Below, one piece after another: positions 2,785 through 49,430 of a stretch of DNA of 64,000 nucleotides. How positions within the stretch are numbered: the first letter of the stretch is position 1; every line of letters starts with the position of its first letter. Origin of the DNA: an uncultured Flavobacteriaceae bacterium (GTDB lineage Bacteria; Bacteroidota; Bacteroidia; Flavobacteriales; Flavobacteriaceae). A program made the position numbers and the translations under genes. Where the stretch lies: positions 451,998 to 515,997 of the forward strand of contig CALDYU010000005.1 in assembly GCA_937944485.1 (NCBI GenBank). The letters run 5' to 3'. The notes under the pieces are model-generated. The model was not told the origin of the DNA. It did not search any database and saw nothing but the letters and a program-made list of their open reading frames with translations.

Positions 2785-2959
2785 TTTATTACATTGTTGA
2801 ATGGTGTTCGATTATCTTTTACAATTAAATATTCAAACTCCTCAATTTTTATCAATTTCTAGCGTTAGTTATGCTAATAAGGTTGTTAAGTTGCCGCTAT
2901 TAACCAAACCGGAATGTGCATTCAATTAAATTGGCGCAACTTAAAATTTATAAAAGTAA

Positions 2960-3946: not shown

Positions 3947-4389
3947 TTTAGGCAATCTATTTATACCAACCGGTCTTATGAATTAAGAGCGGTTTTTTTG
4001 TACATTTAATTATAGAGTTACGCGTATTCGGAGGGATAATTTTAATGAAAAGAGATATCGGGGGATTTCGAAATACAATATGCTGTAAAGATTCAATTTT
4101 AACAAAGATATTACTGGATTTTAGGTAAGTGTTAAAACTTTTGAAATCGTATACGATTTTGCATAAATCTAGCATACAATCAGGGTGATCGACGATTAAC
4201 TGATGTGTTTCATCGATAAAATGTTATAAATTGACTTTTTTCGCCAGTTTTAGTCCTTTTCGAAAACCTGCTTATTAATCATCTTCAAATTCGTTGCAAA
4301 TTGATAAAACAACCACTATTTAAACTTTTAAGCCAAGGTTAGGCTTTTTTGAAGAGAACATTTCTATTTTTGCCTTCAAATTATACCAA

Positions 4390-5661
4390 ATGAATATTCT
4401 AATACTTGGCGCAGGAGGTCGAGAACATACATTAGCTTGGAAATTAAATCAAAGTTCCAAGGAGACGAACTTATTCGTTGCACCCGGTAATGCAGGCACG
4501 GCTTTAATTGCCACGAACAGATCGGTAGATGTAAACGATTTCGAAGCCATCAAAGCAATTACACTTTCTGATAAAATTGAGATGGTCGTAGTTGGGCCTG
4601 AAGACCCACTAGTCAATGGTATTCATGATTATTTTCTTAACGATACTGAACTGTCAAAAATTCCAGTTATTGGTCCGCAGAAAGCAGCGGCAAGACTTGA
4701 AGGGAGCAAAGAGTTTGCAAAACAATTCATGATGCGCCATCAAATACCAACAGCGGCATATCAAAGCTTTACCAATGCTACGTTGCAAGAAGGCTACGCT
4801 TTTTTAGAAACCCTAAATGCACCGTATGTATTAAAAGCTGATGGTTTGGCTGCGGGCAAGGGGGTGCTAATTTTAAATAGTTTAGAAGTGGCAAAGGCCG
4901 AGCTTAAAACTATGCTTGTCGATCAAAAATTTGGTAGTGCTAGCACGACTGTGGTTATTGAGGAATTTTTAGCAGGGATTGAATTGAGTGTATTTGTTCT
5001 TACTGATGGTACGGGATATAAGGTATTACCTACCGCCAAGGATTATAAACGTATAGGAGAAGGAGATACGGGACTAAATACTGGCGGTATGGGGGCCATT
5101 TCGCCAGTTCCTTTTGCTGATCAGGCATTCATGAACAAAATACACGATAGCGTGGTTGTTCCGACCATAGAAGGGCTTAAAAAAGATAATATGCCGTATA
5201 AAGGATTTATCTTCATAGGTCTCATAAAGGTTGGAGATAATCCTTTTGTCATAGAATATAACGTTCGCTTAGGTGATCCTGAAACGGAAGTTGTTTTACC
5301 AAGAATTAAAAATGACTTGGTAGACATCTTTGAAGCGGTGGCTGATCAAAAATTAGATGGGTACATTCTTGAAATCGATGAAAGATCTGCGGCTACAGTG
5401 ATGTTAGTTTCTGGGGGATACCCCGAGGCTTATGAAAAAGGAAAAAAAATAACCGGGTTTGATACTATTCAAGATTCACATGTGTTTCACGCAGGCACAA
5501 AATTATTTGAAGATCAGGTATTGACGAATGGTGGTCGGGTAATGGCAATAACATCATACGGAACCGACTTCAAAGAAGCACTCCGAAAATCTTATGAAAA
5601 CATTGAAAATATTGAGTTTGACCAAATGAACTACAGAAAAGATTTAGGCTTCGATTTGTAG
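4390..5661 (+). CDS. purD: Phosphoribosylamine--glycine ligase
   Basis: MNILILGAGGREHTLAWKL, GPEDPLVNGI, ADGLAAGKGV, NTGGMGAISP, YNVRLGDPETEVVLPR. Confidence 0.97.
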   Translation: MNILILGAGGREHTLAWKLNQSSKETNLFVAPGNAGTALIATNRSVDVNDFEAIKAITLSDKIEMVVVGPEDPLVNGIHDYFLNDTELSKIPVIGPQKAAARLEGSKEFAKQFMMRHQIPTAAYQSFTNATLQEGYAFLETLNAPYVLKADGLAAGKGVLILNSLEVAKAELKTMLVDQKFGSASTTVVIEEFLAGIELSVFVLTDGTGYKVLPTAKDYKRIGEGDTGLNTGGMGAISPVPFADQAFMNKIHDSVVVPTIEGLKKDNMPYKGFIFIGLIKVGDNPFVIEYNVRLGDPETEVVLPRIKNDLVDIFEAVADQKLDGYILEIDERSAATVMLVSGGYPEAYEKGKKITGFDTIQDSHVFHAGTKLFEDQVLTNGGRVMAITSYGTDFKEALRKSYENIENIEFDQMNYRKDLGFDL

Positions 5662-33364: not shown

Positions 33365-34144
33365 TTGTTATTTACTATGGGCAACTCTCAAATATCGGAA
33401 GATGAATTAATTGCGATTTTACGACTTCATAAAATCCCGAATATAGGTGATGTAATCGCGAAAAAATTGATTAGACATTGTGGTAGTGCAACGGCCGTTT
33501 TTACCGATAAACAGCAAAATCTATTAAAGATAGAAGGTGTTGGAAGTTTTGCCTTGCGCGGTTTACATGACAAAGTACATATTGAAGCTGCCGAATCAGA
33601 ATATAATTATATTAAAACCAACGGTATTGCCTATTCTTATTTCATGGATGCTGATTACCCTGCCTATTTAAAGCATTGTATTGACGGTCCACTTCTCCTT
33701 TTTAAGAGAGGGAATATTGATTTGACAGGAAGAAAGATCATAAGTGTTGTAGGCACGCGACAAATCACAAGTTATGGGACTGCATTTTGTGAAAAATTTA
33801 TCGAAGATATTGCTCCCTTAAACCCTATCATTGTTAGCGGATTTGCCTATGGTGTTGATATTTGTGTACAGCGTATGGCAGTTAAACATGGTTTGCAAAC
33901 TATTGGCTGTCTGGCGCATGGGTTAAATCAAATATATCCTAAGGTTCATGCAAAGTATGTTTCTGATATTGAGAAAAATGGGGGGTTTATGACCGATTTT
34001 TGGAGCAGTTCTAACCCAGAGCGAGAAAACTTTTTAAAACGCAATCGCATTATTGCTGGCATGTCTGAAGCTACGATAGTGATTGAATCAGCAGAAAAAG
34101 GGGGAAGTTTAGTAACAGCCGATATTGCGAATAGTTACCAATAA
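33365..34144 (+). pseudogene. dprA: DNA processing protein DprA, N-terminal part (interrupted by island at 34136-34138)
   Basis: VVGTRQITSYGTAFCEKFIEDI, VSGFAYGVDICVQRMAVKHGLQTIGCLAHGLNQIYP, KGGSLVTADIANSY then non-native Q-stop. Confidence 0.95.
34136..34138. other. attL core (TAC) of dprA-integrated island
   Basis: TAC shared with 49071-49073; joining there restores the DprA frame. Confidence 0.85.
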
Positions 34145-34178
34145 TTTATGTATTATATTGCAGTGTAATTAAAGCAAT

Positions 34179-35744
34179 ATGATAGCCGATACAGTAATCT
34201 ACATTAGAGTTTCAACAAAGGAGCAAGACGAACAAAGGCAAATAGATGAGTTAACAAGTTACTGCCAAAGACAACAGCTAAAAGTTGGTAAAACCTTTAT
34301 TGATAAGGTTTCAGGTTATAGTGTTGAATACTCAGAACGTGAACAATTCCAATTGCTGAATGAATATATTGAACTCCATCCAATCAAAAATATAGTTGTA
34401 TCAGAAATAAGTCGTATCGGTAGAAAGTTGATTGAAACTTTAAAATTTATTGAACATTGTACTGATAAAGGTATCTGCATCCACATAAAGAAAGATGGTG
34501 TAATCACTCTAAATGAAGATGGCACAAAAAATTGGATGCTCAATATAATGCTGCCAATCTTAGGATCAATGGCACAGATGGAGAGTGAACAACTAGCATA
34601 CAGAGTTAAGTCAGGTTTGAATACTCGATACAAAGATGGCAGAGGATTTAATGCAAGAATACTAGGATATGAACGTGATAAAGATGGTAGGCCTATTGTT
34701 CATAAAGAGCAAGCCGAAATCGTTAAAATGATATTCAATAAGTACATAGAATTAGAAAACCTTTACAAGCTTAATATCTACCTCAATGAAAATTATAGTC
34801 ATGCAAAGAAAAAGGTATTTACAGAGGGTGGCATAAGGTCTATGCTAAAGAATAAAATATACATTGGTAAATGGTACATTTCCGATTATATAATAGACGT
34901 TGAACCAATTATTGATGTTGATGTATTCAACAAAGTTCAGGACATCGCAAAGGAACGTAAACGAACTAATTTAGATACTGTTTACATCAATCCATTTGCA
35001 TCAAAGATATTTTGTGCAGAATGTGGCGAACCTTTATATCAAAACGTAGCACCGAAATATAGAACGGATAAGTACAAGCATCTAAAATCTAGTTGCTCCA
35101 TAAAGCCAGTTAATCGACCATTCATAATTGAACAAGTGCAACGCATTTTGGAGACCTATAAAAAAATTGAGGGTTATGATAGGCAGAAAGATGAAGCTGT
35201 AAAGCGTTTAGAGTTAGAACAAGCCACTAAGAAAAAAATAGAATCAATCATCAAACCTATTCAACGTAGGCAAGAGAAACTATTGGATAATCTGCTAGAT
35301 GATACCATTACCAAAGAGATTTATACCGAACGGAATAATGCACTCATACAGAAAAAAGAATTGAGTGTAAAGCGTCTAAACAAGGTTAACGAAGAAATAA
35401 AAGGTATTGAGAACTTTATGAAGAATGGAATTCATACAAGTAACCTAGATAGTTTAAGCGAGTTAAAACGAGCCGTTAAAAAGAATGTCGAGTATTTAAA
35501 GATTGGTCAAACAATGGGAATACTAAAAGTAAAAGGTGGCTTCAAGTATCTCATAAAGCTGTACAGAGGTTCTGAATTGTTCAAGTACAACAAAGGCACG
35601 TTAAATATATTCCCAGTAACAACTGTAAGTGAAGATTTACAAACAATCAAGCAGCTTGTTGAAGAAAATCCCGATATGACTTATTCAGATTTCAAAGATT
35701 TATTGACAGAAATGGATAGAGAACATCTTTTGGAAGAAGAATAA
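34179..35744 (+). CDS. Large serine recombinase (integrase) with recombinase domain, zinc ribbon and coiled coil
   Basis: TVIYIRVSTKEQDEQRQIDEL, SEISRIGRKLIETL, GSMAQMESEQLAYRVKSGL, IFCAECGEPLY zinc ribbon; adjacent to attL. Confidence 0.95.
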   Translation: MIADTVIYIRVSTKEQDEQRQIDELTSYCQRQQLKVGKTFIDKVSGYSVEYSEREQFQLLNEYIELHPIKNIVVSEISRIGRKLIETLKFIEHCTDKGICIHIKKDGVITLNEDGTKNWMLNIMLPILGSMAQMESEQLAYRVKSGLNTRYKDGRGFNARILGYERDKDGRPIVHKEQAEIVKMIFNKYIELENLYKLNIYLNENYSHAKKKVFTEGGIRSMLKNKIYIGKWYISDYIIDVEPIIDVDVFNKVQDIAKERKRTNLDTVYINPFASKIFCAECGEPLYQNVAPKYRTDKYKHLKSSCSIKPVNRPFIIEQVQRILETYKKIEGYDRQKDEAVKRLELEQATKKKIESIIKPIQRRQEKLLDNLLDDTITKEIYTERNNALIQKKELSVKRLNKVNEEIKGIENFMKNGIHTSNLDSLSELKRAVKKNVEYLKIGQTMGILKVKGGFKYLIKLYRGSELFKYNKGTLNIFPVTTVSEDLQTIKQLVEENPDMTYSDFKDLLTEMDREHLLEEE

Positions 35745-35762
35745 AGAAACTTCTATTAGTGG

Positions 35763-36080
35763 TTATTCATTCCACCAATGTTCCCCACAACATGGGCAAA
35801 CTTTCTCCTTAAAAATTAAGTCAATCTCATCTATCCGTGCTAATTGTTCAGATGTTGCTTTTCCATATTCCTTTAACTCTTTGAGATTTTCTTGAATCCC
35901 TACTAAAGTTCTTAAATACTCTCCTAATTGTTTAGAAGAATGAAATATTAATCCATCTGTTTTAATAACTGTAGGTTCTATTTCAACTTTCTCTTTTGAT
36001 TCCAAGGACTTTAAAAACTCTTCCATTTCATTAAAGAAAGCAGCATCCTCTTCATTGTATTTCTCATATTTATTCTCCAT
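35763..36080 (-). CDS. Small acidic protein with C-terminal CPCCGEHWW motif, function unknown
   Basis: 105 aa ORF with own ATG, single CxxC. Confidence 0.55.
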   Translation of the reverse strand: MENKYEKYNEEDAAFFNEMEEFLKSLESKEKVEIEPTVIKTDGLIFHSSKQLGEYLRTLVGIQENLKELKEYGKATSEQLARIDEIDLIFKEKVCPCCGEHWWNE

Positions 36081-36287
36081 ATCTTCTATGCTGTTTTCGG
36101 TTTTTCTAGATTATGCATTCTTATTTTCTATTACATCAACGAAAAAATAATAGCAACATTATTTCATTTTGTTTTTTATTCCCTAAATCTTTGATAGAGG
36201 TAGTTCATCCAGAATCCGAATAAATAGTTTTTTCCGATTAAACTCCTATTTATATTTAGACTTATAGAACCCAAAAGTTTAAACATT

Positions 36288-36938
36288 ATGGATAACCTAC
36301 AATTAGAATCATCAGCTACAAGCATCATTAAAAAAGCTAAGTATATAAGAGTGTCAACGTTGGAACAAAACACCAACAGACAAGCTAAAACCTGTCTTGA
36401 ATCTAAAATGTATGTCGATAAGGTTTCAGGATTAATACCATTTGATGAAAGACCTGCAGGTAAGAAGCTGATAAAGGATATTCAAGATGGAAAGATTAAT
36501 CACGTAACCATCCATTCAGTAGATAGGTTAGGTAGAAACGTTGTTGAAATGCAGAAGCAATTAAATTGGTTCATTAGTAATGGAGTTCAAATTTATGCCG
36601 AGAATATTAAGATGGAGTTGCTTAATGAGGATGGAAGTATGAATAGCATAGCCAAGATGATAATTGATTTATTAGGTTCAGTTGCGGGATTAGAGATAGA
36701 AGCTATCAAAGAAAGACAACGCCAAGGAATTGCATTAGCAAAAGCAAAAGGAGTGTATAAGGGCAGACAGTATGGAGCAGTAATGAAAGAAGAAAATTAT
36801 CTATCTCGTCATAAAGATGTGGTGTCACTTTTGAAAGATGGATTGAGTATTAACAAGACATCAAAATTGACTGGAAAAGCATTCGTTACAATTAAGCGTG
36901 TAAAACAGAAATTAGAAGCCGAAAAAATGGCATCATAA
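36288..36938 (+). CDS. Small serine recombinase (resolvase/invertase family)
   Basis: AKYIRVSTLEQNTNRQAK, HSVDRLGRNVVEMQKQL, SVAGLEIEAIKERQRQGIALAKAKGVYKGR and C-terminal HTH. Confidence 0.93.
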   Translation: MDNLQLESSATSIIKKAKYIRVSTLEQNTNRQAKTCLESKMYVDKVSGLIPFDERPAGKKLIKDIQDGKINHVTIHSVDRLGRNVVEMQKQLNWFISNGVQIYAENIKMELLNEDGSMNSIAKMIIDLLGSVAGLEIEAIKERQRQGIALAKAKGVYKGRQYGAVMKEENYLSRHKDVVSLLKDGLSINKTSKLTGKAFVTIKRVKQKLEAEKMAS

Positions 36939-37398
36939 AAGCAGTAAATTATGATGCGAAAAATTGGCAGAAAATCAGTATCGCAACAGGCTTGAAATAG
37001 CACTAAAACTGGCAATGCGCTTATTTTCAGTAAACGAAATGTTAAAGGTTAATGAATACAATGGATTCAAAGCTTTTTTTAGTTGAAAAATGTTTTAACT
37101 CGATGTTATAGAAACAAAGCGCTTTTTTCATTTTGATTTTTTTACGTAAAAATTGAGTCAAAAATAGCTCGATGAAAAGACATGATTTTTTAGGTTAAAT
37201 TCAATCCAAAATCTAGCATCAATTTTCATCCCCAAATTACCCCCAAAAGCATTCCACTTGTTTAAATCTTGACATAGGTTTTAGGAGCTGTAAGAGACTT
37301 TCTATTATCACGCATCAATTTATATACTGGAAAAGATAAAATGTCTCACAGAAGATAAAACCTGCGTTAGACATTATTAATCGATAATAATACAAACA

Positions 37399-37620
37399 AT
37401 GATTAAAAGAATAAAACATTTCTCTGCGAATGAAGTTGTAAGAATGTTAGAAAACAACGATGCTAAAGAAGTTGCAAAAGAAAAAAGAGCAAATAACATT
37501 TTCGATAAGTTGAAGAATCATGTTATGACAGCTAGAAATTCAAAATCGGAGGTTCAACCATCCAAAAGCATATTTGAAAAATTGAAGGCTCACGCAATGG
37601 AAGTCAAGAATTCTAAATAA
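37399..37620 (+). CDS. Small basic protein with internal ~17-aa duplication
   Basis: NIFDKLKNHVMTARNSK and SIFEKLKAHAMEVKNSK in one 73-aa ORF. Confidence 0.55.
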   Translation: MIKRIKHFSANEVVRMLENNDAKEVAKEKRANNIFDKLKNHVMTARNSKSEVQPSKSIFEKLKAHAMEVKNSK

Positions 37621-37627
37621 AAAAGAA

Positions 37628-37816
37628 ATGAACGGAAATGAACAACATTATTATCTCCATAAAGACAGGAGATACGAAAATATGAGGCAACTAAGAGAAG
37701 CATTGGGAATAACATCCCGAGCATTCAGATGTAAAGTGAAAGATGGAGAAATCCAAAAGATAACTAACAGTCAACATGGACATTATGAAAGTACCGAACA
37801 AAAGAAGAAAGGTTAA
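37628..37816 (+). CDS. Small putative HTH/DNA-binding protein
   Basis: MRQLREALGITSRAFRCKVKDGEIQKI; overlaps next gene. Confidence 0.5.
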   Translation: MNGNEQHYYLHKDRRYENMRQLREALGITSRAFRCKVKDGEIQKITNSQHGHYESTEQKKKG

Positions 37817-39161
37817 GAAAAGACCAATCGAAAAAAATTATAGATGTAAACTACCTAAAACTGTAATTGATGCAGTAAATATTTTAAATCTAACTGAAAA
37901 CAAAAAAGAAAAATCATTTGAATTTATATACAACTTAATTAGTATTTCGATAAAAGAAAATGGCTTTTCAGATAACTATGTTCAAGTGTATTCAAAGGAT
38001 TTGTCAAGTGGTTATAAATCGTGGTTAGATGTATTATTAGAATCAGGAGTAGTAAAAACTGATAATCACTATGAAAATAGAGGAGAGAATACTAAATGCA
38101 AGCAATACAGAGTGAATAGAGAGGTTATTGATGGTACTTATAAATTAAATACCACAACCATAAAGTATAAGGAAACTCCTAAACTCAAACAGAGTTTATT
38201 GCAACAGGGTTTTGAAAAATCGGTTAAAAGCATTGAATTTCCAAAAGAGAAATTAGAGAGCGAACTTAAATCAATGGCAGATTCTATTGATAAAAATAGT
38301 GTCGTTCTAAATGAAGATATACCTAATGGAAACTATAAAATAATTTATAATAGAACCCAACTTAAAGAGTATTATTCTAGTAAAGAGAAGGCTTTAGAAA
38401 AAGCTAGAGAACTTAACAAAGATTTGATACTACATGAAAATAAGTTGTATTTGAAAAAGCTTGATAGTTTCATAAATGAAAGAAGATTAGATTCTGAAAT
38501 GTCCAACCATAATGCATTATTCAGATTAATTGATGGATGCTATAAATGTGGCAGAAATGAAACCAATTATAGATTTGATACCCCCTTTAGTAATCTTAGC
38601 AAAAAGTTGTTTGGAGTAATCAAAGAGCATAACGGATTAGTTGAAATAGATGCAAAGAATAGTCAATATGCATTACTGGCAAATCTAATTGGAGAAGAAG
38701 ATTCTTTGTTTTATGACGATGCAACTAAAGGCGTATTGTATGATAAAATCAAAGATAAGTTCAATATTTCTAGGGATGAATCCAAGAGTTTAATGATGCT
38801 TATTGTATTTGGTAAGTTGGATAATAACACTCCACATAAAGAAGCATTTAAAAAGATGTACTCAAATGCAAACAATTTCATTGAAGAGTATAAAAAGAAA
38901 AATCCCGAGAACATCCAATCAAGAACTATTAAAAGCCAAAAGGATTATTACAAGGCATTACCTATTAGATTGCAACGAATGGAATCTGATTTTTGGATTG
39001 ATGGTGTATTGACAGAATGCTACAAAAGAAATATTAATGCCATTTCTAGGCATGATAGTATTACAGTTCACAAGCAAGACAAACAAGAGGTTATTGATAT
39101 TATAGAGGTATTAGCTAAAGAAAAAAGTTTGATTTTTAAATTGGATACATACGTTAAATAA
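37776..39161 (+). CDS. Putative family-A DNA polymerase / single-subunit RNA polymerase-like protein with N-terminal wHTH-like region
   Basis: Motif A VEIDAKNSQYALLANL (38649), motif B R-x3-K-x7-FG (RDESKSLMMLIVFG, 38773-38813), motif C ISRHDSITVH (39051). Confidence 0.7.
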   Translation: MDIMKVPNKRRKVKKRPIEKNYRCKLPKTVIDAVNILNLTENKKEKSFEFIYNLISISIKENGFSDNYVQVYSKDLSSGYKSWLDVLLESGVVKTDNHYENRGENTKCKQYRVNREVIDGTYKLNTTTIKYKETPKLKQSLLQQGFEKSVKSIEFPKEKLESELKSMADSIDKNSVVLNEDIPNGNYKIIYNRTQLKEYYSSKEKALEKARELNKDLILHENKLYLKKLDSFINERRLDSEMSNHNALFRLIDGCYKCGRNETNYRFDTPFSNLSKKLFGVIKEHNGLVEIDAKNSQYALLANLIGEEDSLFYDDATKGVLYDKIKDKFNISRDESKSLMMLIVFGKLDNNTPHKEAFKKMYSNANNFIEEYKKKNPENIQSRTIKSQKDYYKALPIRLQRMESDFWIDGVLTECYKRNINAISRHDSITVHKQDKQEVIDIIEVLAKEKSLIFKLDTYVK

Positions 39162-39452
39162 CCACTTACTTAATGCAAGTTTTCATGCTCCTTCATGTTG
39201 CCAAAAAATATGTCCATAAACAATATATACAACATATTGTTCTCACGACACTTGTTAACATAAGGATTAATAAGATATATTTTTAGTATTAAATATATTA
39301 TTAGGGAGTTAGTATAAATTGGAGATTTAGAGGTAGTAAATAGAATATTTGATTTTAAGTAGTCAAATAAAAAAGAGGTGGCGAATTTTTCATCTACAAT
39401 TCAACGCGAAATGGAATTGCTCACAGATTCCAATTAATCAAAAATAAACACA

Positions 39453-39965
39453 ATGAAGAAGTCTATCCGCAAGATAGACCTCAACGTTATATTTGAGCCA
39501 GCACTTACGTTCAATGACTTTGCCATTTACTTATCCATATTAGGAATACTACCAAATGGAGCAAGGAAAGCACATCTCATCTCTTCGACAAACATATTTG
39601 AGGTGTGCGGCATTGTACAGCAAGGGCAATCAAGGTCTTTGAAGAAATTGGAAAGACTAGGTTTCATCAAGATAACAAGAGGTAGATACCAAAGTAAGTT
39701 CAAGATTAATAGAACCTACGGAAATCATATCAAAATAGAACATACACAATTTAACAACCTCATCTCTGGTCATAAAGCGTTCACACGCAGAATGAGAGCG
39801 ATAGTTATAGCAAACGGTAAAAGTGATATACCAAGATACCGCATGGCTAGAACATTGTTCAAAGAGAGCCTAAGCTATGAGGAATACTATAAATTAAAAA
39901 GATTGTTCCAAACAAAGGACAAAAACAATTTGGAAATGGACATTGCACTCTCCACTTCCAAATAA
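39453..39965 (+). CDS. Unknown island protein, possible wHTH
   Basis: 170 aa ORF on the coding strand; SRSLKKLERLGFIKITRGRY resembles a winged-helix segment. Confidence 0.55.
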   Translation: MKKSIRKIDLNVIFEPALTFNDFAIYLSILGILPNGARKAHLISSTNIFEVCGIVQQGQSRSLKKLERLGFIKITRGRYQSKFKINRTYGNHIKIEHTQFNNLISGHKAFTRRMRAIVIANGKSDIPRYRMARTLFKESLSYEEYYKLKRLFQTKDKNNLEMDIALSTSK

Positions 39966-40009
39966 TAAACAGAAAAGAGCGCAAGATTATTTTAAAAAAG
40001 AGAATAGAC

Positions 40010-40630
40010 ATGACTGATTCAGTTAGTAAAAAAAGAGAAGTATTGTACACCAACGAAGCCATAAGAGCCAGTAAAACAAGAGTTGCAGAGGGCGTACTAA
40101 CATTACTCAATGAGTACAAAGAAGTATATCAGGAGCAAATCAACGAAGAAGCACCAATTGATGAAATAGTAAACGCAATCAATACAGGTAATGAAGTAGA
40201 GGAGTTCATTAAATTGAGACACAAAGAGGATTTAAAGAACCTAAAGACAAACTTTCCTCATATAGACCAAGAGAAAGCACTATCTATATTCAAAGAGGAA
40301 ACAGAAAAGGTAGCAGAACAACTAATCTCAATTGCATCCAATATCCAACTTAGATTAAAAGGAGAGGGGATAACAATAGAACACTTCGTATTGAATGATG
40401 AGTTCTCCTTGAATAGCAAAGTAAAGGGTAGGATAAAAAATATGTCAACCACCTATTGCACAAACAAGAAGCAAAAAGAGGTACGAGACCTAGCAAATAA
40501 ACTATCCAAGTTGATTAAATCAGCAATAGATAACGGTGTACTAGCATCAAACAGATTAGGTACAAATGCCGAAAATATTATCAATATAAACACAGGAGAG
40601 ATAAATCACCGCTACATAGCGAGATTGTAA
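40010..40630 (+). CDS. Unknown helical island protein
   Basis: 206 aa ORF, start ATG after AAAAAAGAGAATAG; followed by terminator. Confidence 0.55.
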   Translation: MTDSVSKKREVLYTNEAIRASKTRVAEGVLTLLNEYKEVYQEQINEEAPIDEIVNAINTGNEVEEFIKLRHKEDLKNLKTNFPHIDQEKALSIFKEETEKVAEQLISIASNIQLRLKGEGITIEHFVLNDEFSLNSKVKGRIKNMSTTYCTNKKQKEVRDLANKLSKLIKSAIDNGVLASNRLGTNAENIININTGEINHRYIARL

Positions 40631-40676
40631 GAAATAGATGGTTGACATTCAGCCACCTACATTTGTCAACACCCGA

Positions 40677-40707
40677 AGCCTGCGTTTCATATTCGCAGGC
40701 TTTTTTT
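40677..40707 (+). terminator. Rho-independent terminator
   Basis: AGCCTGCG-TTTCATATT-CGCAGGCT then T-tract. Confidence 0.9.
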
Positions 40708-40820
40708 AGTTGAGAGTACCAAATTTATTTTTCTATTAGTATTTCTTATCGGAGAATCCATAAACATTGGAAAAACCAATACTAGAAAACTAAGATTAAC
40801 CTATCATAAAGCATAAAATA

Positions 40821-41102
40821 ATGGAAGAAACTAAAAAAATAGGCAGACCTAAAAAATTAGGATTGCGATTTGAAATAAAAAAGAAGATTTCCAAGACCTT
40901 AGAGAACTACTTTAATTCAGAAGATTACTTACACGATATTCAGTTAAAGAATGGCAACAACCGCCTTAAAACTCACTTAGGATTGCTATCATACATACTA
41001 CCAAAGGCAGAATCTATAAAATCCCAAATGTTAGGACTTGATGAAGATGAGATGAAAGAATTGATTGAGTCAGTTAAGGATGAATTAAGCAAAAGAGCAT
41101 AG
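40821..41102 (+). CDS. Small unknown protein (KIGRPKK N-terminus)
   Basis: 93 aa ORF, own upstream gap; basic N-terminus like AT-hook/small terminase-type proteins. Confidence 0.5.
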   Translation: MEETKKIGRPKKLGLRFEIKKKISKTLENYFNSEDYLHDIQLKNGNNRLKTHLGLLSYILPKAESIKSQMLGLDEDEMKELIESVKDELSKRA

Positions 41103-41106
41103 CATC

Positions 41107-41301
41107 ATGGGTACACTAAGAAAGATTGGAGAGGGAATATCACAGAAGACACCTAATGCAAATGATGCTACTTGCCCCTTAGTATTCAAAAAGAATGGCA
41201 AGTATTATACAGATGTTGATTATAAAACAGAATTGACAGAAGAACAAGTAAAGGACTTAACTGTAATTGCATTTGAAGAACAGACAACAACCTTACCATA
41301 A
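41107..41301 (+). CDS. Small unknown protein
   Basis: 64 aa ORF closely following previous ORF. Confidence 0.4.
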   Translation: MGTLRKIGEGISQKTPNANDATCPLVFKKNGKYYTDVDYKTELTEEQVKDLTVIAFEEQTTTLP

Positions 41302-41868
41302 AGGCACACCATATTTAAGAAAATTAGTTTTTGTTTAACTGATTCTTTTTTGAAGACCATTAGGAGCAATCCTTTTGGTCTTTTTTTTACTTCTTGTATT
41401 TCTGTCGGTATGCAGCATTATTAATATACAGGCCTATAACCCATACAAGAGCAAAGGCAATTACACCTCCAATAATTTCATACCAAGTAAGGTCTTCCAT
41501 ATAGCAATATTAAGAAAAATGGAAAATGTATTGGATAAACTGGAATTAGGTAATGTTAAACAACTAAGAAAAAATCTGTTAGTCGTTTCAGCAACTGCAA
41601 TTGCAGTAAGTCAATTTCTACAACATCAATTAGGCATCAATTTTTATTAAAAATTAGATGTATTGGAATATTTCCTTATTTTTGGATTTTTTCCAATATA
41701 TTTAAATTGATAAAACAGAAACCATACGGCGGCAGCCACAAACCCAATTCTAAATTTGATTTATGCATGAAAGAAGAAATATGAAAAATTAAGAAATGAT
41801 TCCTCAATGGATTCATTAAAAACGTGTTGCCATTGACTTGTGCTTTCCAAAAATTGTAATTAATTTCG

Positions 41869-41881
41869 CATACTATAGTTA
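41869..41881. promoter_or_regulatory. Putative C-protein operator upstream of MTase genes (CATACTATAGTTA)
   Basis: 13 bp identical to 45062-45074 in the C-gene promoter; 20 bp before MTase ATG at 41901. Confidence 0.75.
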
Positions 41882-41900
41882 TCAATATTTATTACCCTAT

Positions 41901-42725
41901 ATGACAAAGAAAACGCCTGTCTTATTTCGATACCCTGGAGGTAAGTTTTATGCCATAAAACTGCTATCGAGATTTTGGGAAAATGTCTCACATGACGAAT
42001 ACAGAGAGCCTTTTGTTGGAGGTGGAAGTGTGTTTTTCTCAAAGAAAAAGGCTAATGTAAATTGGTTAAACGACCTTGATGACGAATTAATCCAAACTTA
42101 TAAGAGCATAAAAAGTAAAAAGGGCAGAAATATTTTAATAAATAAATTCCAAACTGAGGTTGCTAACAAAGAGAGGTGGAGAGAGGTTTATGAGTTTATT
42201 CCTAGTTCTGATATAGATGTAGCTTGGAAATATTATTATTTGAATAGGACTTCTTTTAGTGGAAAATTGGTTTCTCCAGCTTGGGGCTATCGTCCTAAAC
42301 GTAGTTTACCACCTGAACGATGGCATGAAAGAATCTTACCATGTGGTGAAAAACTAGAAAAGGCAAAGCTAACTTCCTTAGATTTTGAAAAGGTTATCTC
42401 CGCAAAAAGTAAAAATGAAGTTCTTATGTTTGTGGACCCTCCATATTTTAAACCACCTAAGACCAAGCATTATAGAAATGGTTTTGATTTAAAGGACCAT
42501 GAAAGACTTGCTAAATCTTTGAGTAAAACGCAGCATAAATTTTTCTTGACCTACGATGATTGCGAAGAAGTTAGAAATCTATATTCTTGGGCTAGAATAC
42601 ATGAGGTAAAATTTTTCTATCGTGTTGATAATTCGAATGCTGAGAATGGTAAAAGGAAAATGGGGTTTGAATTAATAATTACTAACTACGATTTGCCCAA
42701 ACAAGGGTTATTGTTTGAAGAATAA
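41901..42725 (+). CDS. D12-class N6-adenine DNA methyltransferase (M1)
   Basis: LFRYPGGKFYAIKLL, YREPFVGGGSVFF, FVDPPYF. Confidence 0.93.
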   Translation: MTKKTPVLFRYPGGKFYAIKLLSRFWENVSHDEYREPFVGGGSVFFSKKKANVNWLNDLDDELIQTYKSIKSKKGRNILINKFQTEVANKERWREVYEFIPSSDIDVAWKYYYLNRTSFSGKLVSPAWGYRPKRSLPPERWHERILPCGEKLEKAKLTSLDFEKVISAKSKNEVLMFVDPPYFKPPKTKHYRNGFDLKDHERLAKSLSKTQHKFFLTYDDCEEVRNLYSWARIHEVKFFYRVDNSNAENGKRKMGFELIITNYDLPKQGLLFEE

Positions 42726-42727
42726 AA

Positions 42728-43561
42728 ATGCACGAATATAAAATAAATCAATACATAAAATCTTCGGATTACAGTAAATCTCCTTTTAGATATCCGGGAG
42801 GGAAGTTTTATGCTTTAAAGCATATAATTCCGTTTTTAGATGTTGTCAAACATGACGAATATAGAGAGCCTTTTGTTGGAGGTGGAAGTGTGTTTTTTGG
42901 AAAAAAGAAAGTTGAATCTAATTGGATAAATGACATAGAACCTGAGATAATTAATGTTTATGACCAATTATCTAATGATGCAAAGTTCATTCATTTTAAG
43001 GATTTATTCAATAATGAAATTGCATCAAAAGACAGACACAAACAAGTGAGAGATTTGTCAGTAAATTCAGAGCTTGAAAGAGCTTTTAAAACTTATTATC
43101 TAAATAGAACGTCATACTCTGGTATAATAAATAAACCTGCTTGGGGCTACAAGGATGGGAAAAGTTCACCGCCTGAAAATTGGAAGAATTTTCTATTAAA
43201 TGCTAACAAGAAACTACAAGATGTAAAAGTTACCAATTTAGATTTTGAAAAAGTAATAAATGCTAAATCAAAAAGCAAGGATGTTCTAATGTATCTTGAT
43301 CCACCTTACTTTTTAGCTGACCAAAAAAGAGCTTACACAAAGTCTTTTGAACTTAATGACCATAATAGGTTAATGAAGACATTGAAAAATACTAAGTATA
43401 AATTTTGTCTTTCGTATGATGATTGTAAAGAGATACGTGAATTGTATAACTGGGCAAATATTTATGAAAAGAGCTGGCTATATAATACTGCGAATAGTAA
43501 CGGAGAATCAAGAATGAAAGGCAATGAGCTAATCATAACCAATTATAGCGTTATACTTTGA
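42728..43561 (+). CDS. D12-class N6-adenine DNA methyltransferase (M2), tandem paralogue
   Basis: PFRYPGGKFYALKHI, YREPFVGGGSVFF, YLDPPYF. Confidence 0.93.
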   Translation: MHEYKINQYIKSSDYSKSPFRYPGGKFYALKHIIPFLDVVKHDEYREPFVGGGSVFFGKKKVESNWINDIEPEIINVYDQLSNDAKFIHFKDLFNNEIASKDRHKQVRDLSVNSELERAFKTYYLNRTSYSGIINKPAWGYKDGKSSPPENWKNFLLNANKKLQDVKVTNLDFEKVINAKSKSKDVLMYLDPPYFLADQKRAYTKSFELNDHNRLMKTLKNTKYKFCLSYDDCKEIRELYNWANIYEKSWLYNTANSNGESRMKGNELIITNYSVIL

Positions 43562-44798
43562 AAATGTTTCTAATTGACTCTTCATTAAGTTCAAATTTCA
43601 AAAGGTCAACATATTTTATTTTTTGAAGAGCATTTATACGATGATTAATAACAGTATGTTGCTGCAGTAGGTCGGTAGGGATACAAAATATTTGCCACTT
43701 TAATTCACAATCAATTCCAATTTCATTAGAGTATTTCTTCACTAGTGGAGGATCTAGTGCTAACATTAAATATTCAAAATCTGATTTTAAGTATAATCGA
43801 CTTTGTGTAGGATGGTCATTAACTCTACCTCTTGTTAATTGGGTTTCAGTTGCTACGATTGATTCTTTACCTCTAAATCGACAATTGTTTGTTGACACTC
43901 CTTTAACTTGGAAAAACTTATAAGCACCTTTAATATTAACGGCAAAATCGGCTTTATCTCCTCTTTCCTTTTTTAATGGAACTGGATTTAAGGACTTAAT
44001 TTTATATTGAGACAGAAAATTATTTATTGCAATCTCTCGAGCAAAACCTCGAATGGACATATCCCATATTCTAAAATTACCATCAGTTAAAATTGTATCT
44101 AAAATGATTTCCGATTTTAAATTTAACTTCTGACTTGATTTAGGTAATTGCTCTAAATCGAAATCCTTTGGGATATGATTTTGCGATTCCAAATCAATTT
44201 TATTGACCCCTATTCGTTTAAAATTATTCAATCCTTCATGTGTTTGCCACATTACTTTAAATGGACTCATAATTTTGTTATTATCCAACTGATGTCTAGG
44301 AATTTCTTTGTGGTTTAAGAAAAGAATATTCAGTGGTTCATATGAAATAAGACCTACTAAGTATTCCGCAAAATGGTCAATACTATGATAATAATCCATT
44401 GATTCTCGCTCAGATTTTGCACCATGTGTCTTATGGGTTTTGTATTGAACAAATCCATTCTTAGTTCCCGCCATGTTAGGAGTTTTAAGCTGTAAAGTAT
44501 GATTATTGACTTTTAAGTCAACAACATCATCGCCACCCATCTGAATCGCTTCATGATTGTTTTCTTCCAAAACGTATTTAAAGACAGATTCAAAAGCATG
44601 TCCTTTAACCGTCCTGAAAACTGGAGAGTTATCAGCAATTAAACTATCAAAATCTGAATTTTGTAATTGTAGAGAATCTACTAAAGAATGTAATTTTATA
44701 TTTTCAGGTAAATCAGTTACATCTTCTACGCCATAAACGTTTTGTAGATTTTTTATTATTTCGCCAATTCTTCCTGTGCCGTAATCATTTTTTTTCAT
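43551..44798 (-). CDS. Putative Type II restriction endonuclease with two PD-(D/E)XK-like motif sets
   Basis: Convergent with MTases, behind C-protein gene; DDVVDLKVNNHTLQLK and DKADFAVNIKGAYKFFQVK. Confidence 0.7.
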   Translation of the reverse strand: MKKNDYGTGRIGEIIKNLQNVYGVEDVTDLPENIKLHSLVDSLQLQNSDFDSLIADNSPVFRTVKGHAFESVFKYVLEENNHEAIQMGGDDVVDLKVNNHTLQLKTPNMAGTKNGFVQYKTHKTHGAKSERESMDYYHSIDHFAEYLVGLISYEPLNILFLNHKEIPRHQLDNNKIMSPFKVMWQTHEGLNNFKRIGVNKIDLESQNHIPKDFDLEQLPKSSQKLNLKSEIILDTILTDGNFRIWDMSIRGFAREIAINNFLSQYKIKSLNPVPLKKERGDKADFAVNIKGAYKFFQVKGVSTNNCRFRGKESIVATETQLTRGRVNDHPTQSRLYLKSDFEYLMLALDPPLVKKYSNEIGIDCELKWQIFCIPTDLLQQHTVINHRINALQKIKYVDLLKFELNEESIRNIFKV

Positions 44799-45012
44799 TT
44801 TTAAAAAGTTGCTCTAATGTTATTTCTAATGCATTAGCAACCTTTTCAATATTGATGAGAGTAATGTTTTTCTCAGCTCTCTCTATCATTCCGATGTATG
44901 TTCTATGTAAGTCAGCTCTATGAGCAAGTTCTTCTTGGGAAAGTCCCTTTTGTTTTCTTAACATCCTCACTTTACGGCCGAACAACTGAAGTACTTTAGA
45001 ATCTACTTTCAT
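44785..45012 (-). CDS. XRE-family controller (C) protein of R-M system
   Basis: FGRKVRMLRKQKGLSQEELAHRADLHRTYIGMIERAEKNITLINIEKVANAL; overlaps REase start. Confidence 0.9.
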   Translation of the reverse strand: MKVDSKVLQLFGRKVRMLRKQKGLSQEELAHRADLHRTYIGMIERAEKNITLINIEKVANALEITLEQLFKNEKK

Positions 45013-45034
45013 TGCTAATTTTAATGTGAGTAAA

Positions 45035-45076
45035 GCTAACTATAGTATTCAATACTAACTACATACTATAGTTAGC
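45035..45076. promoter_or_regulatory. C-box operator: 14-bp perfect inverted repeat GCTAACTATAGTAT-N14-ATACTATAGTTAGC
   Basis: Immediately upstream of C-protein gene; each arm contains palindrome ACTATAGT. Confidence 0.88.
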
Positions 45077-45155
45077 ATTTGATTTAATTATCATTAATAG
45101 CAGAGTAAAATTTCAATTTATTGATTTTAAAATCAAACGAAGGGTGGACAATAAA

Positions 45156-45185
45156 AAAGCTGACTATAAATACATAGTCAGCTTT
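45156..45185. terminator. Hairpin terminator AAAGCTGACTAT-AAATAC-ATAGTCAGCTTT
   Basis: 12-bp perfect stem with flanking A/T tracts after the minus-strand gene ending at 45212. Confidence 0.8.
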
Positions 45186-45211
45186 AATAGATGTATATAG
45201 TTGAGAATAAT

Positions 45212-45700
45212 CTATTCTTTCTTTACAATATACTTAGGCGCATAAGTCATTGATAACCTCACTTTATAAACATAACCTGTTGTATTATCAGTAAAGTTTA
45301 CTTGAAACTTCCAATCTATATCAGCATCATCTGCATAAATCTTATCTACAGCAGTTTCTATTTGTTCAGTTGTTTCCGCTTGTCTAAGTTGTGCTTTTCC
45401 AACTGCATCATTACCACCAGCAGCTTCGGACATTTTGGTAGCAAGACTTTTTGGAGTTTTTACTTTGCCTACTTCATTAATAGTAATATCAGTAAAACCA
45501 TACTTTTCTAGCTTCTTAGGTAATCGTTTTTCCATAGCACTTATAACGGCCTTAGATAATCCCGAAGTAGATACATCTTGATTATACTCGCCTTCAAATG
45601 TTTCTTTTACTTCAAGAACTTTCTTTCCAGTTGTTGGTGCTGTCTGTGCATTAAGACTTAATGAAAGCATGATAATTAGTAAGCTTATGGTATTCTTCAT
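45212..45700 (-). CDS. Exported protein of unknown function
   Basis: Signal peptide MKNTISLLIIMLSLSLNAQ; 162 aa. Confidence 0.65.
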   Translation of the reverse strand: MKNTISLLIIMLSLSLNAQTAPTTGKKVLEVKETFEGEYNQDVSTSGLSKAVISAMEKRLPKKLEKYGFTDITINEVGKVKTPKSLATKMSEAAGGNDAVGKAQLRQAETTEQIETAVDKIYADDADIDWKFQVNFTDNTTGYVYKVRLSMTYAPKYIVKKE

Positions 45701-45808
45701 AATGTTTTTTGATTTTTAAAGTGAGAATCAAATATATGATTTTGCCGAGTATTCAATCCCTTGTTTACTCGCTTTTGTTGTCAAATTGCCATTAAACGTT
45801 GCGAACAA

Positions 45809-46045
45809 ATGGCTAAGAATAAAAAAGACAACAACGAACCTTTAAAAAAGTTCGGAGAAAAGATATTAGAGATTAGATTGAAAAGAGAGATGTCTCAAAT
45901 GGACGTAGGGGCATTATTGGGTATAGATCGGGAAAACATAAGGAAATACGAAAAAGGTCTTCAAGAGCCAAGATTATCTACTATTGTGAAGTTTGCAGAA
46001 GCATTTGAAATAGATTACAATGAGTTGTTAGGATATGATAAATAA
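45809..46045 (+). CDS. XRE-family transcriptional regulator (second HTH protein of island)
   Basis: FGEKILEIRLKREMSQMDVGALLGIDRENIRKYEKGLQEPRLSTIVKFAEAFEI; likely start MAKNKK. Confidence 0.85.
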   Translation: MAKNKKDNNEPLKKFGEKILEIRLKREMSQMDVGALLGIDRENIRKYEKGLQEPRLSTIVKFAEAFEIDYNELLGYDK

Positions 46046-46067
46046 GCTATTCATACAGTCCATCTAT

Positions 46068-46131
46068 TAAACAGGCAGTTGATCCAATTTAGTTTGTAAT
46101 AAGGGGGCTTCTTCATATCTTTATACTGACA
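46068..46131 (+). repeat. Noncoding direct repeat copy 1 (64 nt, conserved ends, 23-nt variable centre)
   Basis: TAAACAGGCAGTTgATCCAATtTAGTTT-[23]-CTTTATACTGACA. Confidence 0.85.
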
Positions 46132-46547
46132 CGCTATTTAAAACGAAGCGTTTTAAGGCAGTCTAAGTAAGGCAACATCATATCTATATAAAGTATTCAA
46201 ATAGATTTGATTCAACAGTACAGCTAGCAAAAGACATCTACACAGCTAGAATAGAACACCTACAAGAGTATCATTTCCACAAATAGCATATTACCTCTAA
46301 TCCTAAAAAGTAGCCACAAGAACAAGAATAGTTGGATTGGAGGGAACTAGTAGTATCTAACCAATAGAATAGAACAAAGACCTATCTTCATCAAGCCAAC
46401 CTATCAACGTTATAAGTATACTTCAAAGGTTTAGTATATATCATATTTTGAACCTCTCCCAAGGCTACTGAATACGTGTAAAGGTAATAGTACCCTAAAG
46501 GTTAATATGTTCTGAATGAGAAGCAAGCAGAAAAAAATACAATCCAG

Positions 46548-46611
46548 TAAACAGGCAGTTCATCCAATATAGTTTTTCCTTAGAGTGTATCTTATTACCT
46601 TTATACTGACA
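46548..46611 (+). repeat. Noncoding direct repeat copy 2 (64 nt)
   Basis: TAAACAGGCAGTTcATCCAATaTAGTTT-[23]-CTTTATACTGACA, 480 bp after copy 1. Confidence 0.85.
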
Positions 46612-47000
46612 GACCTTTTTTATAAAAAATCCCCCGTAGGAGTGCAATCTCGCTCCCTTTTATTTCAATATCCAAAAATACTCTCAACTGTTTTCTTCAA
46701 AATAACAGAGTCCGTCATATAAAAATCGCCAGCCACCTTTTTTTCATTTTTCAAAATAAAAAAATACCTCATGATTGAAAAAAGGGAGTTAAGAACTTGT
46801 CAATAGAAAGTGCACCCAATAATTAGATAATTGACTTAATTCAGTATGTCATTAGAGAGTACATAACTTTTATTATATAAAAAAGGACTCAAGCGTTTTA
46901 ATTATTTTTATAAACGAGCGTAATAAAATTGCATAGAAAAAATAATTACCTTGCTAGTATCGTTTTTGGTTATCGGTAGAATCGTTCAACATTTCATTAT

Positions 47001-48968
47001 ATGAAACATAAGATATATATAGGTAAACTATATTGCTATTTGATTTTTTTCGCTTTATTGAGTGGTATGTCATCATGTGAAAAAAACAAAGATGCAGATT
47101 TTGATGGTATACCAAATGTAAGTGACTCTCAGCCATTGATAATGGACGCTCCTTCTTTTACTTTTATTAATGAAGATTTGGTAGTCGGTATTGACTATCA
47201 ACTAAGCGGTTCAGAAAAAAAAGTTCAACAAAAGAGTATCAGCATTACTAACACATTCACAGAAAATTTTAAGAAAGTCAGAACTAAAACCAAAACATCC
47301 GAATTCATTAGTAGTTTTGCCATTGATATTTCGAAAACAATAAAAGATAAAGTAGGAGGTTCTTCAACAGAACCTTTATCCACTGCTACTAGTAATGAGA
47401 TTTTTAAAGGGGAGCTAAGTTCGACTAATACTCAAAAACTCAATACAGTTGAAACTAAAACAAGAATCAGCGATTTTCAAAGAAAATCAAAAGAATTTGT
47501 TGAATGGATTAGTACAAATACTATTGAATATAATGCTGATGATGGTTTCATTAGAACTGGCCTAAAAATATCAAATAGTGGTAAAAATCCTATTCTATTT
47601 AAAAATCTTGAAATCAAAATCGTAGAAGTTGATGCCTTCGATGACAGTATTGAGAAAAACACACTATATGTAAAATCCTTAGGAGCCCATACAGTCTACC
47701 CAAGTGATAAAGAAATCCCATTTTATAGCATACCAATACAATTTGATAAGATATCTACAAACCAAATTTTTGAGCTTGTAAATAACAGAAGTACTTTAAG
47801 ATTGAAGATTCAAAATTATTTACTTGAGTATAATAGCATTGAATTTATTCCATCTAACTTAAATAGGTTGAAAGAAATGCATACTTCAACTCTTAATATA
47901 ATAGACCAGTTTGGTGATTTAAAGACTTATAATATTCCAGTCAAAAATAAATATGATAAAACATTAACCATAAAGGATGCACTTAAGTTGATTGATAAGG
48001 ACTTAGAAACTAAGTCGCAGACAATAAATAATTCAACTGTTGAGCTAATAAATCGCTTTTTAGGGATGAAAACAAGTTTTCAAGATTTCGGTAATCCTGA
48101 AAAATACACTGAACCTGAGCTCCTTCAATCAGCTTGGATTATAACAAGTCCCAGTATCAAAGGACTAATGAATCTAAATCAAGAATTGATTCAAAATTCT
48201 GAACTTAATATTTTTCCATTAACTAAAGAAAAAATCTGGAATAGTTTTAGAATAGAAAAGAAGTATTCTAATGTTCAGGGTGACACCGACAGCCTCAAAG
48301 GAAAATATTATTACGATTACCCATTTCCATTTGCTTCAAATAATGCTCAAGCTAAAAAAAATGTTCAAGCTTTTAATGAGTTTGAGCAACTTTCAAAGAG
48401 AGATACAGTCTATACAATCAAGGGTGATTCCTTATCATTAAGTCAGGGAGATTTACTAAGAATTAATTTCCAAGTTTTATATGCTAATATCATAACAGAG
48501 ACTGATGATAAATTGTTTTTTAAACCTAAGGTTCCTAAGGGGAATCATAGTGGAGATTGGTCTGTATTTTTTGGAGCAAAAAAAAGTCTCAAAATTGATG
48601 AATTTCGACCTTTTAGGACATCATTTATTGAAGATTATAACATTTCAATTAAATTTGTCGATCATAACACAATCTACAAATTAAGTGAACTAATCAATAA
48701 GGGTTTATGCAAAGCTAAATTGTATGGTGATGGAAATGTCACAATAGAAATAACTCCACCTAATGGCTTCAAGGAATTACAAAACGTACCTTTTGAGATA
48801 TATTTTACTACAGCTTCAAATCAATTCGAATATGGTCTTGACATAAAAAGAGGATCAGGAGCGAAAGCATCAAGTTATTTAAAAAAGAAGTTACGTTTAC
48901 CAGTCATAATTAAGTGTGAAGTAATTATTTCATCTGCATCACCATTATTGGATGAAGCACAGGATTAG
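47001..48968 (+). CDS. Large lipoprotein with thrombospondin-type-3-like Ca-binding segment, function unknown
   Basis: Lipobox LLSGMSSCEKNKDADFDGIPNVSDSQP; 655 aa. Confidence 0.75.
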   Translation: MKHKIYIGKLYCYLIFFALLSGMSSCEKNKDADFDGIPNVSDSQPLIMDAPSFTFINEDLVVGIDYQLSGSEKKVQQKSISITNTFTENFKKVRTKTKTSEFISSFAIDISKTIKDKVGGSSTEPLSTATSNEIFKGELSSTNTQKLNTVETKTRISDFQRKSKEFVEWISTNTIEYNADDGFIRTGLKISNSGKNPILFKNLEIKIVEVDAFDDSIEKNTLYVKSLGAHTVYPSDKEIPFYSIPIQFDKISTNQIFELVNNRSTLRLKIQNYLLEYNSIEFIPSNLNRLKEMHTSTLNIIDQFGDLKTYNIPVKNKYDKTLTIKDALKLIDKDLETKSQTINNSTVELINRFLGMKTSFQDFGNPEKYTEPELLQSAWIITSPSIKGLMNLNQELIQNSELNIFPLTKEKIWNSFRIEKKYSNVQGDTDSLKGKYYYDYPFPFASNNAQAKKNVQAFNEFEQLSKRDTVYTIKGDSLSLSQGDLLRINFQVLYANIITETDDKLFFKPKVPKGNHSGDWSVFFGAKKSLKIDEFRPFRTSFIEDYNISIKFVDHNTIYKLSELINKGLCKAKLYGDGNVTIEITPPNGFKELQNVPFEIYFTTASNQFEYGLDIKRGSGAKASSYLKKKLRLPVIIKCEVIISSASPLLDEAQD

Positions 48969-49070
48969 GAAGAGTAGAGAGGTTGTTAGCAGCATATTTA
49001 ACTTAATGAAAATAAGATTTCTAATTTGTAAATATATATTTATACTGCTAAACAATAAGTAAATTAATGA

Positions 49071-49073
49071 TAC
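49071..49073. other. attR core (TAC)
   Basis: TAC followed by in-frame dprA 3' part AATCGTGATGTT (NRDV). Confidence 0.85.
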
Positions 49074-49430
49074 AATCGTGATGTTTTTGCCGTTCCGGGA
49101 AGAGCTGAAGACAAGTATAGTTTAGGCTGTAACAACTTAATAAAGCAACAGAAAGCGCAGCTGTTGACGTCGGCTGCTGATTTAGTGTATTTGTTAGGTT
49201 GGAATGTTGAAAACAAACCCTCTCAAACAATTCAAAAACAACTTTTCGTCGATTTAGATGCTATGGAGAAGACCATCTATTCGTATTTACACAAAGAAGG
49301 CAAACAGATGCTTGATCGTATTTCACTCGAATGCAAAATACCTGTTTTTAAAACCTCATCGATGCTTTTAAATATGGAGATGAAAGGAGTAATACGCCCT
49401 TTGCCTGGTAAATTATTTGAGGCGTTATAA
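49074..49430 (+). pseudogene. dprA: DprA C-terminal part (displaced by island)
   Basis: NRDVFAVPGRAEDKYSLGCNNLIKQQKAQLLTSAADLVYLLGW...LLNMEMKGVIRPLPGKLFEAL; in-frame TGA just upstream at 49068. Confidence 0.95.

Follow-up and report, generated by a model that had tools for sequence, protein, structure and literature searches.

A predicted minimal family-A polymerase on an integrative element in dprA of a Flavobacteriaceae bacterium

TV-Pols are standalone minimal family-A proteins of 400-600 aa made of palm, fingers and thumb (Iyer, Abhiman, Aravind 2008; PMC2579912). They occur on mobile elements with gamma-delta-type resolvases and restriction-modification (R-M) genes, and members from Bacteroidetes, in Polaribacter, Psychroflexus and Cytophaga, have been reported (PMC2579912). 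In SCCmec, CcPol-MP primes DNA de novo in vitro, and CcPol without its partner MP cannot prime (PMC7581432). The Bacillota islands that encode PolA-SSB primases also carry R-M genes and large serine recombinases (PMC10061031). According to this literature, CcPol-MP, with its close Bacillota relatives, is the only island-encoded family-A primase characterised (PMC7581432, PMC10061031).

Here we describe a 461-aa protein encoded in a window of 64,000 nucleotides (the whole stretch of DNA analysed) from an uncultured Flavobacteriaceae bacterium. By class it is very probably a minimal polymerase of family A (the Pol I superfamily) lacking an exonuclease, and is predicted to work like the TV-Pol and CcPol polymerases of mobile elements. 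The protein is small, has invariant residues and is unnamed by the libraries searched, so that its activity can be tested directly. With its family, the idea of an island family-A polymerase reaches islands and prophages of Bacteroidota as well as phages that rank among the largest known. The family bears both on the divergence between single-subunit RNA polymerases and DNA polymerases of family A and on the replication of serine-integrase elements.

An integrative element interrupting dprA

The polymerase gene lies in an insertion that splits dprA (Table 1). TAC is present at both junctions, joining positions 34138 and 49074 gives a 377-aa DprA in frame, and the dprA site is uninterrupted in all 14 of the 14 other genomes of the genus. 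The original prediction of a standalone protein devoid of exonuclease and carried by an island is borne out, the island being confirmed as this 14,935-bp insertion. The 521-aa recombinase matches the CcrA model (E 8.6e-21) with 74.6 bits against a cut-off of 700; an SCC-type cassette was rejected, since this score is below the cut-off and the insertion is in dprA and not in rlmH.

Table 1. Features of the element, its junctions and the polymerase ORF (positions in the window)
Feature	Position	Strand	Basis
dprA, 5' part	33365..34138	+	PF02481 E 7e-60; in-frame rejoining
Integrative element, 14,935 bp, GC 31.5%	34139..49073	.	dprA junctions, empty sites
Large serine recombinase (integrase), 521 aa, by left end	34179..35744	+	Resolvase and Recombinase domains
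Resolvase/invertase-type serine recombinase	36288..36938	+	PF00239 E 1e-25
Small HTH-like ORF, second of two small ORFs before the polymerase	37628..37816	+	ORF list
Candidate minimal family-A polymerase, 461 aa, ATG start	37776..39161	+	ORF list, family alignment, AF2 model, Foldseek
Winged-helix order of elements, aa 41-113	37896..38114	+	DSSP on model
R266 in beta-hairpin	38571..38573	+	81/81 invariant; flanking strands in model
Motif A VEIDAKNSQYALLANL, aa 289-304	38640..38687	+	Strand E288-293 in model
Motif B/O-helix-like RDESKSLMMLIVFG, aa 333-346, R-x3-K-x7-FG (R333, K337, F345)	38772..38813	+	
LQRMES block (Q400, E403)	38970..38987	+	Alignment columns and profile alignment
Motif C HDS	39051..39059	+	Aligned to VHDE of Pol I
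Rep-initiator-like winged-helix protein directly downstream of the polymerase	39453..39965	+	phrog_8102, E 4.8e-5
206-aa protein, same direction	40010..40630	+	No family above cut-off
Two D12-class adenine methyltransferases (41838-42725, 42728-43561)	41838..43561	+	PF02086 E 2.9e-26, 3.1e-31; PADLOC MTase_II
Probable restriction endonuclease, 415 aa	43551..44798	-	Adjoins the two methyltransferases and the C-protein
Restriction-modification control protein	44785..45012	-	PADLOC Control_protein E 1.6e-24
dprA, 3' part	49074..49430	+	In-frame rejoining with 5' part

The end of the small HTH-like ORF overlaps the start of the polymerase gene, and translational coupling of the two is possible. 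The probable endonuclease contains D..QLK and D..FQVK segments, PD-(D/E)XK-like by eye, and libraries including Pfam, NCBIfam and PADLOC gave no convincing match for it. The element also encodes a lipoprotein-like ORF and further small ORFs, among them a 105-aa protein (35763-36080) that runs opposite to the recombinases, ends in a zinc-knuckle-like CPCCGEHWW and has no clear family. A Walker-A helicase and a recognised OB-fold partner or MP/SSB-like gene were sought in the island and none was found.

At least three polymerase-carrying elements interrupt natural-transformation genes, namely dprA here and comM in two others. The comM genes of Salegentibacter tibetensis and Galbibacter pacificus are cut just past the same PFRSPHHTI (L090, about 9510; L091, about 4760). 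In the portion of PMC4774983 considered here, comM is already a known insertion target and dprA is not named as one.

Relatives of the 461-aa protein and their conserved residues

Single-protein searches of Pfam, PHROGs, NCBIfam and PDB sequences returned nothing above cut-off for the 461-aa protein, the Pfam matches to YlqD and MCM_WH being rejected as far below it. Unannotated homologues were found by tblastn of phage records in phages of 634-735 kb (best E 2e-10). IMG/VR gave no match when scanned with the single protein, and 89 related stretches, many of them on huge-phage contigs of 100-476 kb, when an alignment built from six initial members was used. Using a closer alignment, we detected 11 loci in named Bacteroidota genomes, including Flavobacterium terrigena, Salegentibacter tibetensis, Flagellimonas onchidii and Aestuariivivens, with two polymerase copies in Galbibacter pacificus. 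Of 396 genomes from the order to which the window belongs, 25 have family matches, and PLSDB plasmids contain no member. In a quick tree of 81 members, used for broad grouping only, 41 huge-phage proteins form one well-supported group and the window protein is placed among Bacteroidota islands and small phages, the position of long branches, its own included, being unsure. The family is large and unnamed, and spans islands of Bacteroidota, giant phages and small prophages.

Genes around the Bacteroidota and small-phage members code, among others, for RecA, a DnaA-C-like protein and large serine recombinases, and for terminases, portals and head proteases; no D5-like or other helicase is present among the 25 families listed for 115 neighbour proteins. 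Three phage records of 31-34 kb (L008, L009 and L012) gave no PolA, PolB, PolIII, DNAG_N or Toprim_2 match, so that the family protein is the sole candidate polymerase or primase detected in these records, which may be fragments. Huge phages with a family member also encode PolB, and some a Toprim protein, indicating that the family looks accessory there, being neither the only polymerase nor a clear primase. A related phage (L101) has a longer PolA-like frame besides its family member.

Several other genes adjoin the homologues. In F. terrigena (L087, 11673-12566) a short DprA-family gene of 297 aa lies next to the polymerase. In the phage record L009, the gene cluster left of the polymerase encodes a protein of 1045 aa in which intein and LAGLIDADG domains are recognised (2248-5382). 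A conserved ORF of 63-72 aa, with the sequence YMGxEYTEE...DGGIYMFDGMVIYPDGSM, comes right after the polymerase in L007 (8810-9016), L009 (9350-9568) and L010 (9426-9617) and could encode a partner protein. In the huge phages L005 and L006 (3738 to about 5080) a conserved protein of 440-447 aa precedes the polymerase, and in L072 the two share one frame if a TAG is read through.

All the motif strings on which the original prediction relied are found in the ORF where it had placed them: besides motifs A and B, these are SWLDVLLESGVVKTDNHY (aa 81-98), TPFSNLSKKL (aa 269-278), LPIRLQRMESD (aa 395-405) and ISRHDSITVH (aa 423-432). Conservation was counted over 81 diverse family members. R266, D292, Y322, E403, H426 and D427 are invariant in all 81, and K337 (80/81), Q400 (78/81) and Q297 (77/81) nearly so. 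Position 333 is R or K in 76 of the 81; position 345 is F in 73 and F or Y in 79; the final G of R-x3-K-x7-(Y/F)G is present in 46, with S in 23. Motif C reads HDS in 74 members and HDC in five.

D292 of motif A and D427 of motif C are the predicted first and second metal-binding Asp, R266 corresponds to the Arg of the Pol I segment TGRLSSxxPNLQN, and the LQRMES block to Pol I PIQGSAAD. In the profile alignment, motif B is aligned with the RSNAKTVNFGIIYG-type block of Pol I. A gap-free match of DYSQIELRIIA (Pol I) with DAKNSQYALLA puts Q297 at the place of Pol I E710, and F345 falls at that of Y766, both correspondences being residue counts and not a superposition. E710 is the Pol I residue that excludes ribonucleotides (the steric gate). 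The motifs are separated by 26 (R-D), 41 (D-R) and 89 (K-H) residues, as compared with 38, 49 and 123 in the host Pol I, 43 (D-R) and 131 (K-H) in T7 DNA polymerase, and 90 (D-R) and 180 (K-H) in T7 RNA polymerase (RNAP). The D-R and K-H spacings indicate that the fingers are DNA-polymerase-like and that the whole protein is compact. The active site is a hybrid of DNA- and RNA-polymerase signatures.

Predicted fold and candidate role

An AlphaFold2 model was built from a 59-sequence alignment (pLDDT 87.7, pTM 0.86). Its best 50 PDB matches in Foldseek are all family-A DNA polymerases, with Bst, Taq, T7 DNA polymerase, Pol theta and apicoplast Pol among them (best E 3.8e-6, prob 1.00), and T7 RNAP and mitochondrial RNAP are absent from these 50. 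The TM-scores are low (0.28-0.45), which presumably reflects the domains that are missing and how far the hand is open. A huge-phage member, L017, for which a second model was made (pLDDT 91.4), likewise has family-A DNA polymerases at the top of its match list, with a weak match to mitochondrial RNAP further down (POLRMT, E 0.019, TM 0.41). In a viral structure library the nearest entry to the window protein is an unnamed 409-aa protein (E 1.7e-16), followed by an uncultured marine phage protein entered as "Putative DNA polymerase I" (E 4e-14); small phage proteins and then, at E 2e-3, a virophage helicase/primase/polymerase lie further off. The family-A fold predicted by these models is well supported. 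As modelled, the protein combines a winged-helix-like N-terminus and a thumb of reduced size with the hairpin that bears the Arg, a palm of RRM type and the RxxxK fingers helix.

The family profile was compared by hhalign with a profile of 30 class-level Pol I sequences and T7 DNA polymerase. Motif B, LQxxES and HDS fell on the corresponding Pol I blocks, whereas motif A was displaced by two residues; the score was 28.9 (P 0.0096). Column-shuffled profiles scored 15.4 +/- 2.4 (maximum 23.4, n=60) and the reversed profile 19.1, so that the Pol I score lies 5.5 s.d. above the shuffles; column shuffling is a lenient null, and the fold result therefore weighs more. The global mode gave no usable alignment. 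Neither Pfam DNA_pol_A nor a solved Pol I was matched significantly in any sequence-profile search, and the one match of the 59-member profile to PDB sequences was rejected as chance. When the bacterium's own genome was searched with PF00476, only the host Pol I was found, elsewhere in the genome, indicating that the 461-aa protein is not the housekeeping enzyme.

These comparisons sustain the palm assignment, made originally as either family-A or single-subunit RNAP: the proposed search for such a match was run and found a family-A structural match, and the palm and fingers motifs align to Pol I. The quoted motifs also exceed chance, given their invariance in the 81 members and a Pol I profile score above all 60 shuffles. 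The winged helix proposed for the N-terminus stands as regards the order of its elements, which appears in two models, and fails as regards a sequence-profile match: the domain searched alone hit no significant winged-helix or initiator family. By DSSP, the window model has H41-62, E69-71, a short helix, H80-90, E93-95 and E109-113, and the order is clearer in L017 (H54-71, E76-79, H80-87, H91-100, E104-108, E116-121). From this topology we infer a winged-helix-like N-terminus.

Polymerase activity of the protein is strongly indicated, and its product is probably DNA rather than RNA. It is fairly likely to act in replication of the element. By analogy and from its context, it may with moderate confidence bind an origin, and de novo priming can be put forward tentatively, at slightly less than an even chance. 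Overall, we favour, with some reserve, a DNA polymerase of initiator/primase type that serves the element once it is excised. The serine recombinase would excise the 15-kb island from dprA; the polymerase would then begin and carry out template-dependent DNA synthesis at the origin region of the element itself, with help from the rep-like winged-helix protein encoded next to it, and would finally pass the element to the host replisome. Such an initiator role has been found in vitro for CcPol-MP of SCC elements (PMC7581432) and proposed for TV-Pols (PMC2579912).

A bolder and rather unlikely version would unite initiator, primase and polymerase in one chain, with an origin-binding winged helix joined to a minimal family-A palm in which Gln-Phe replaces the Glu-Tyr sugar gate and which starts its own chains. 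If true, the same enzyme would be common to 15-kb islands, 31-kb prophages and phages of 300-735 kb, and would constitute a primase different from those of the DnaG and AEP families and from CcPol-MP, which depends on an OB-fold partner.

An accessory DNA polymerase that depends on primers and serves gap filling, Okazaki processing or repair of element DNA would account for the Pol I-like fold, and priming would be redundant in the huge phages with a separate PolB and, in some, a Toprim primase-like protein. CcPol, moreover, needs its partner MP to prime (PMC7581432), and no MP-like partner was found here. However, a repair enzyme would be of little use to a 15-kb island or a 31-kb prophage, the gene adjoins that of a rep-like initiator, its product has a DNA-binding-like N-terminal domain, and in the small phage records it is the sole replication-type enzyme detected. 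We regard this alternative as doubtful.

A single-subunit RNAP of the T7 or mitochondrial type, transcribing the element or laying down its RNA primers, was one of the options of the original prediction, and is now disfavoured. It draws on motif C, which is HDS as in T7 RNAP, on the replacement of the Glu steric gate by Gln and of Y766 by Phe, and on the weak POLRMT match of the huge-phage model (E 0.019). Against these stand the best 50 PDB matches of the window protein, all of them DNA polymerases, and a T7 RNAP profile that scores 20.8, within 2.5 s.d. of the shuffles and with the motifs not aligned. The spacing between motifs A and B is DNA-polymerase-like (41 against 90 in T7 RNAP), and T7 RNAP has an N-terminal domain for promoter recognition that the protein is too short to contain, all of which makes an RNAP improbable.

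That the protein is a defence or counter-defence enzyme with polymerase chemistry, a cargo of the island and no part of its replication machinery, would agree with the R-M system carried there and with a helicase not being found nearby, but is very improbable, as the occurrence of the family in huge phages and prophages near RecA, DnaA-C-like and rep-like genes better fits replication and PADLOC gave no match for the polymerase. A degenerate, non-catalytic palm protein, like some RRM-only "Pol" proteins of Bacillota islands that are devoid of the catalytic Asp (PMC10061031), is hardly credible when neither the two Asp nor the hairpin Arg vary in 81 members and the O-helix Lys is kept in 80.

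Comparison with described polymerases

With Pol I and T7 DNA polymerase the window protein shares the predicted fold, the motif order and the motif A-B spacing. Unlike them, it has no exonuclease, a reduced thumb and a winged-helix-like N-terminus, with E710 replaced by Q, Y766 by F and HDE by HDS, and the sequence similarity is not significant. T7-type RNAPs share the HDS motif C and R-x3-K-x7-(Y/F)G; their fingers spacing, however, is twice that of the window protein, their promoter domain is absent here, the steric gate is Gln and not Gly, and the fold search ranks DNA polymerases first. Small "DNA polymerase" proteins of some tailed phages (for example Rheinheimera phage Barba31A and an uncultured marine phage, A0A8D9FR19) have about 400-450 aa and a similar predicted fold; as seen in the fold search only, A0A8D9FR19 is close (E 4e-14), and the proteins from Aeromonas and Rheinheimera phages lie further away (E 8e-7 to 4e-5).

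CcPol and the PolA-SSB primases resemble the window protein in being island-borne family-A polymerases near large serine recombinases and R-M genes, with an exact target site. CcPol differs in a sequence close to housekeeping Pol I and in keeping the Glu gate (E174), neither of which holds for the window protein, and is accompanied by an OB-fold partner and a helicase of the same operon, whereas the next gene here encodes the rep-like winged-helix protein.

The TV-Pols were compared by their published description, plus one candidate, MAP_030 of Microcystis phage LMM01 (L124, 22746-24266), a hypothetical protein encoded beside transposases. MAP_030 has motif-A-, motif-B- and LQ.IE-like segments, with HNS instead of HDS, a weak collinear match, and a profile-profile P of 0.045 on the N-terminal part. 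It is possibly a degenerate relative or the TV-Pol mentioned for LMM01, and was rejected as a TV-Pol reference because the match is too weak for proof. Some TV-Pols have a D5 helicase, a feature of one subset, that is neither fused nor adjacent to the window protein. The TV-Pol text gives a conserved fingers Asp; near the place that it leads one to expect, around G319-x-x-Y322, the 81 sequences show no conserved Asp. The family differs in the nearly invariant Gln at the steric gate and in the LQxxES helix. Both share the Arg on a beta-hairpin before the palm, the two palm Asp and RxxxK in the fingers, no nuclease domain, and a mobile-element setting with resolvase or integrase, and the Bacteroidetes TV-Pols of PMC2579912 may be the same proteins as the window family.
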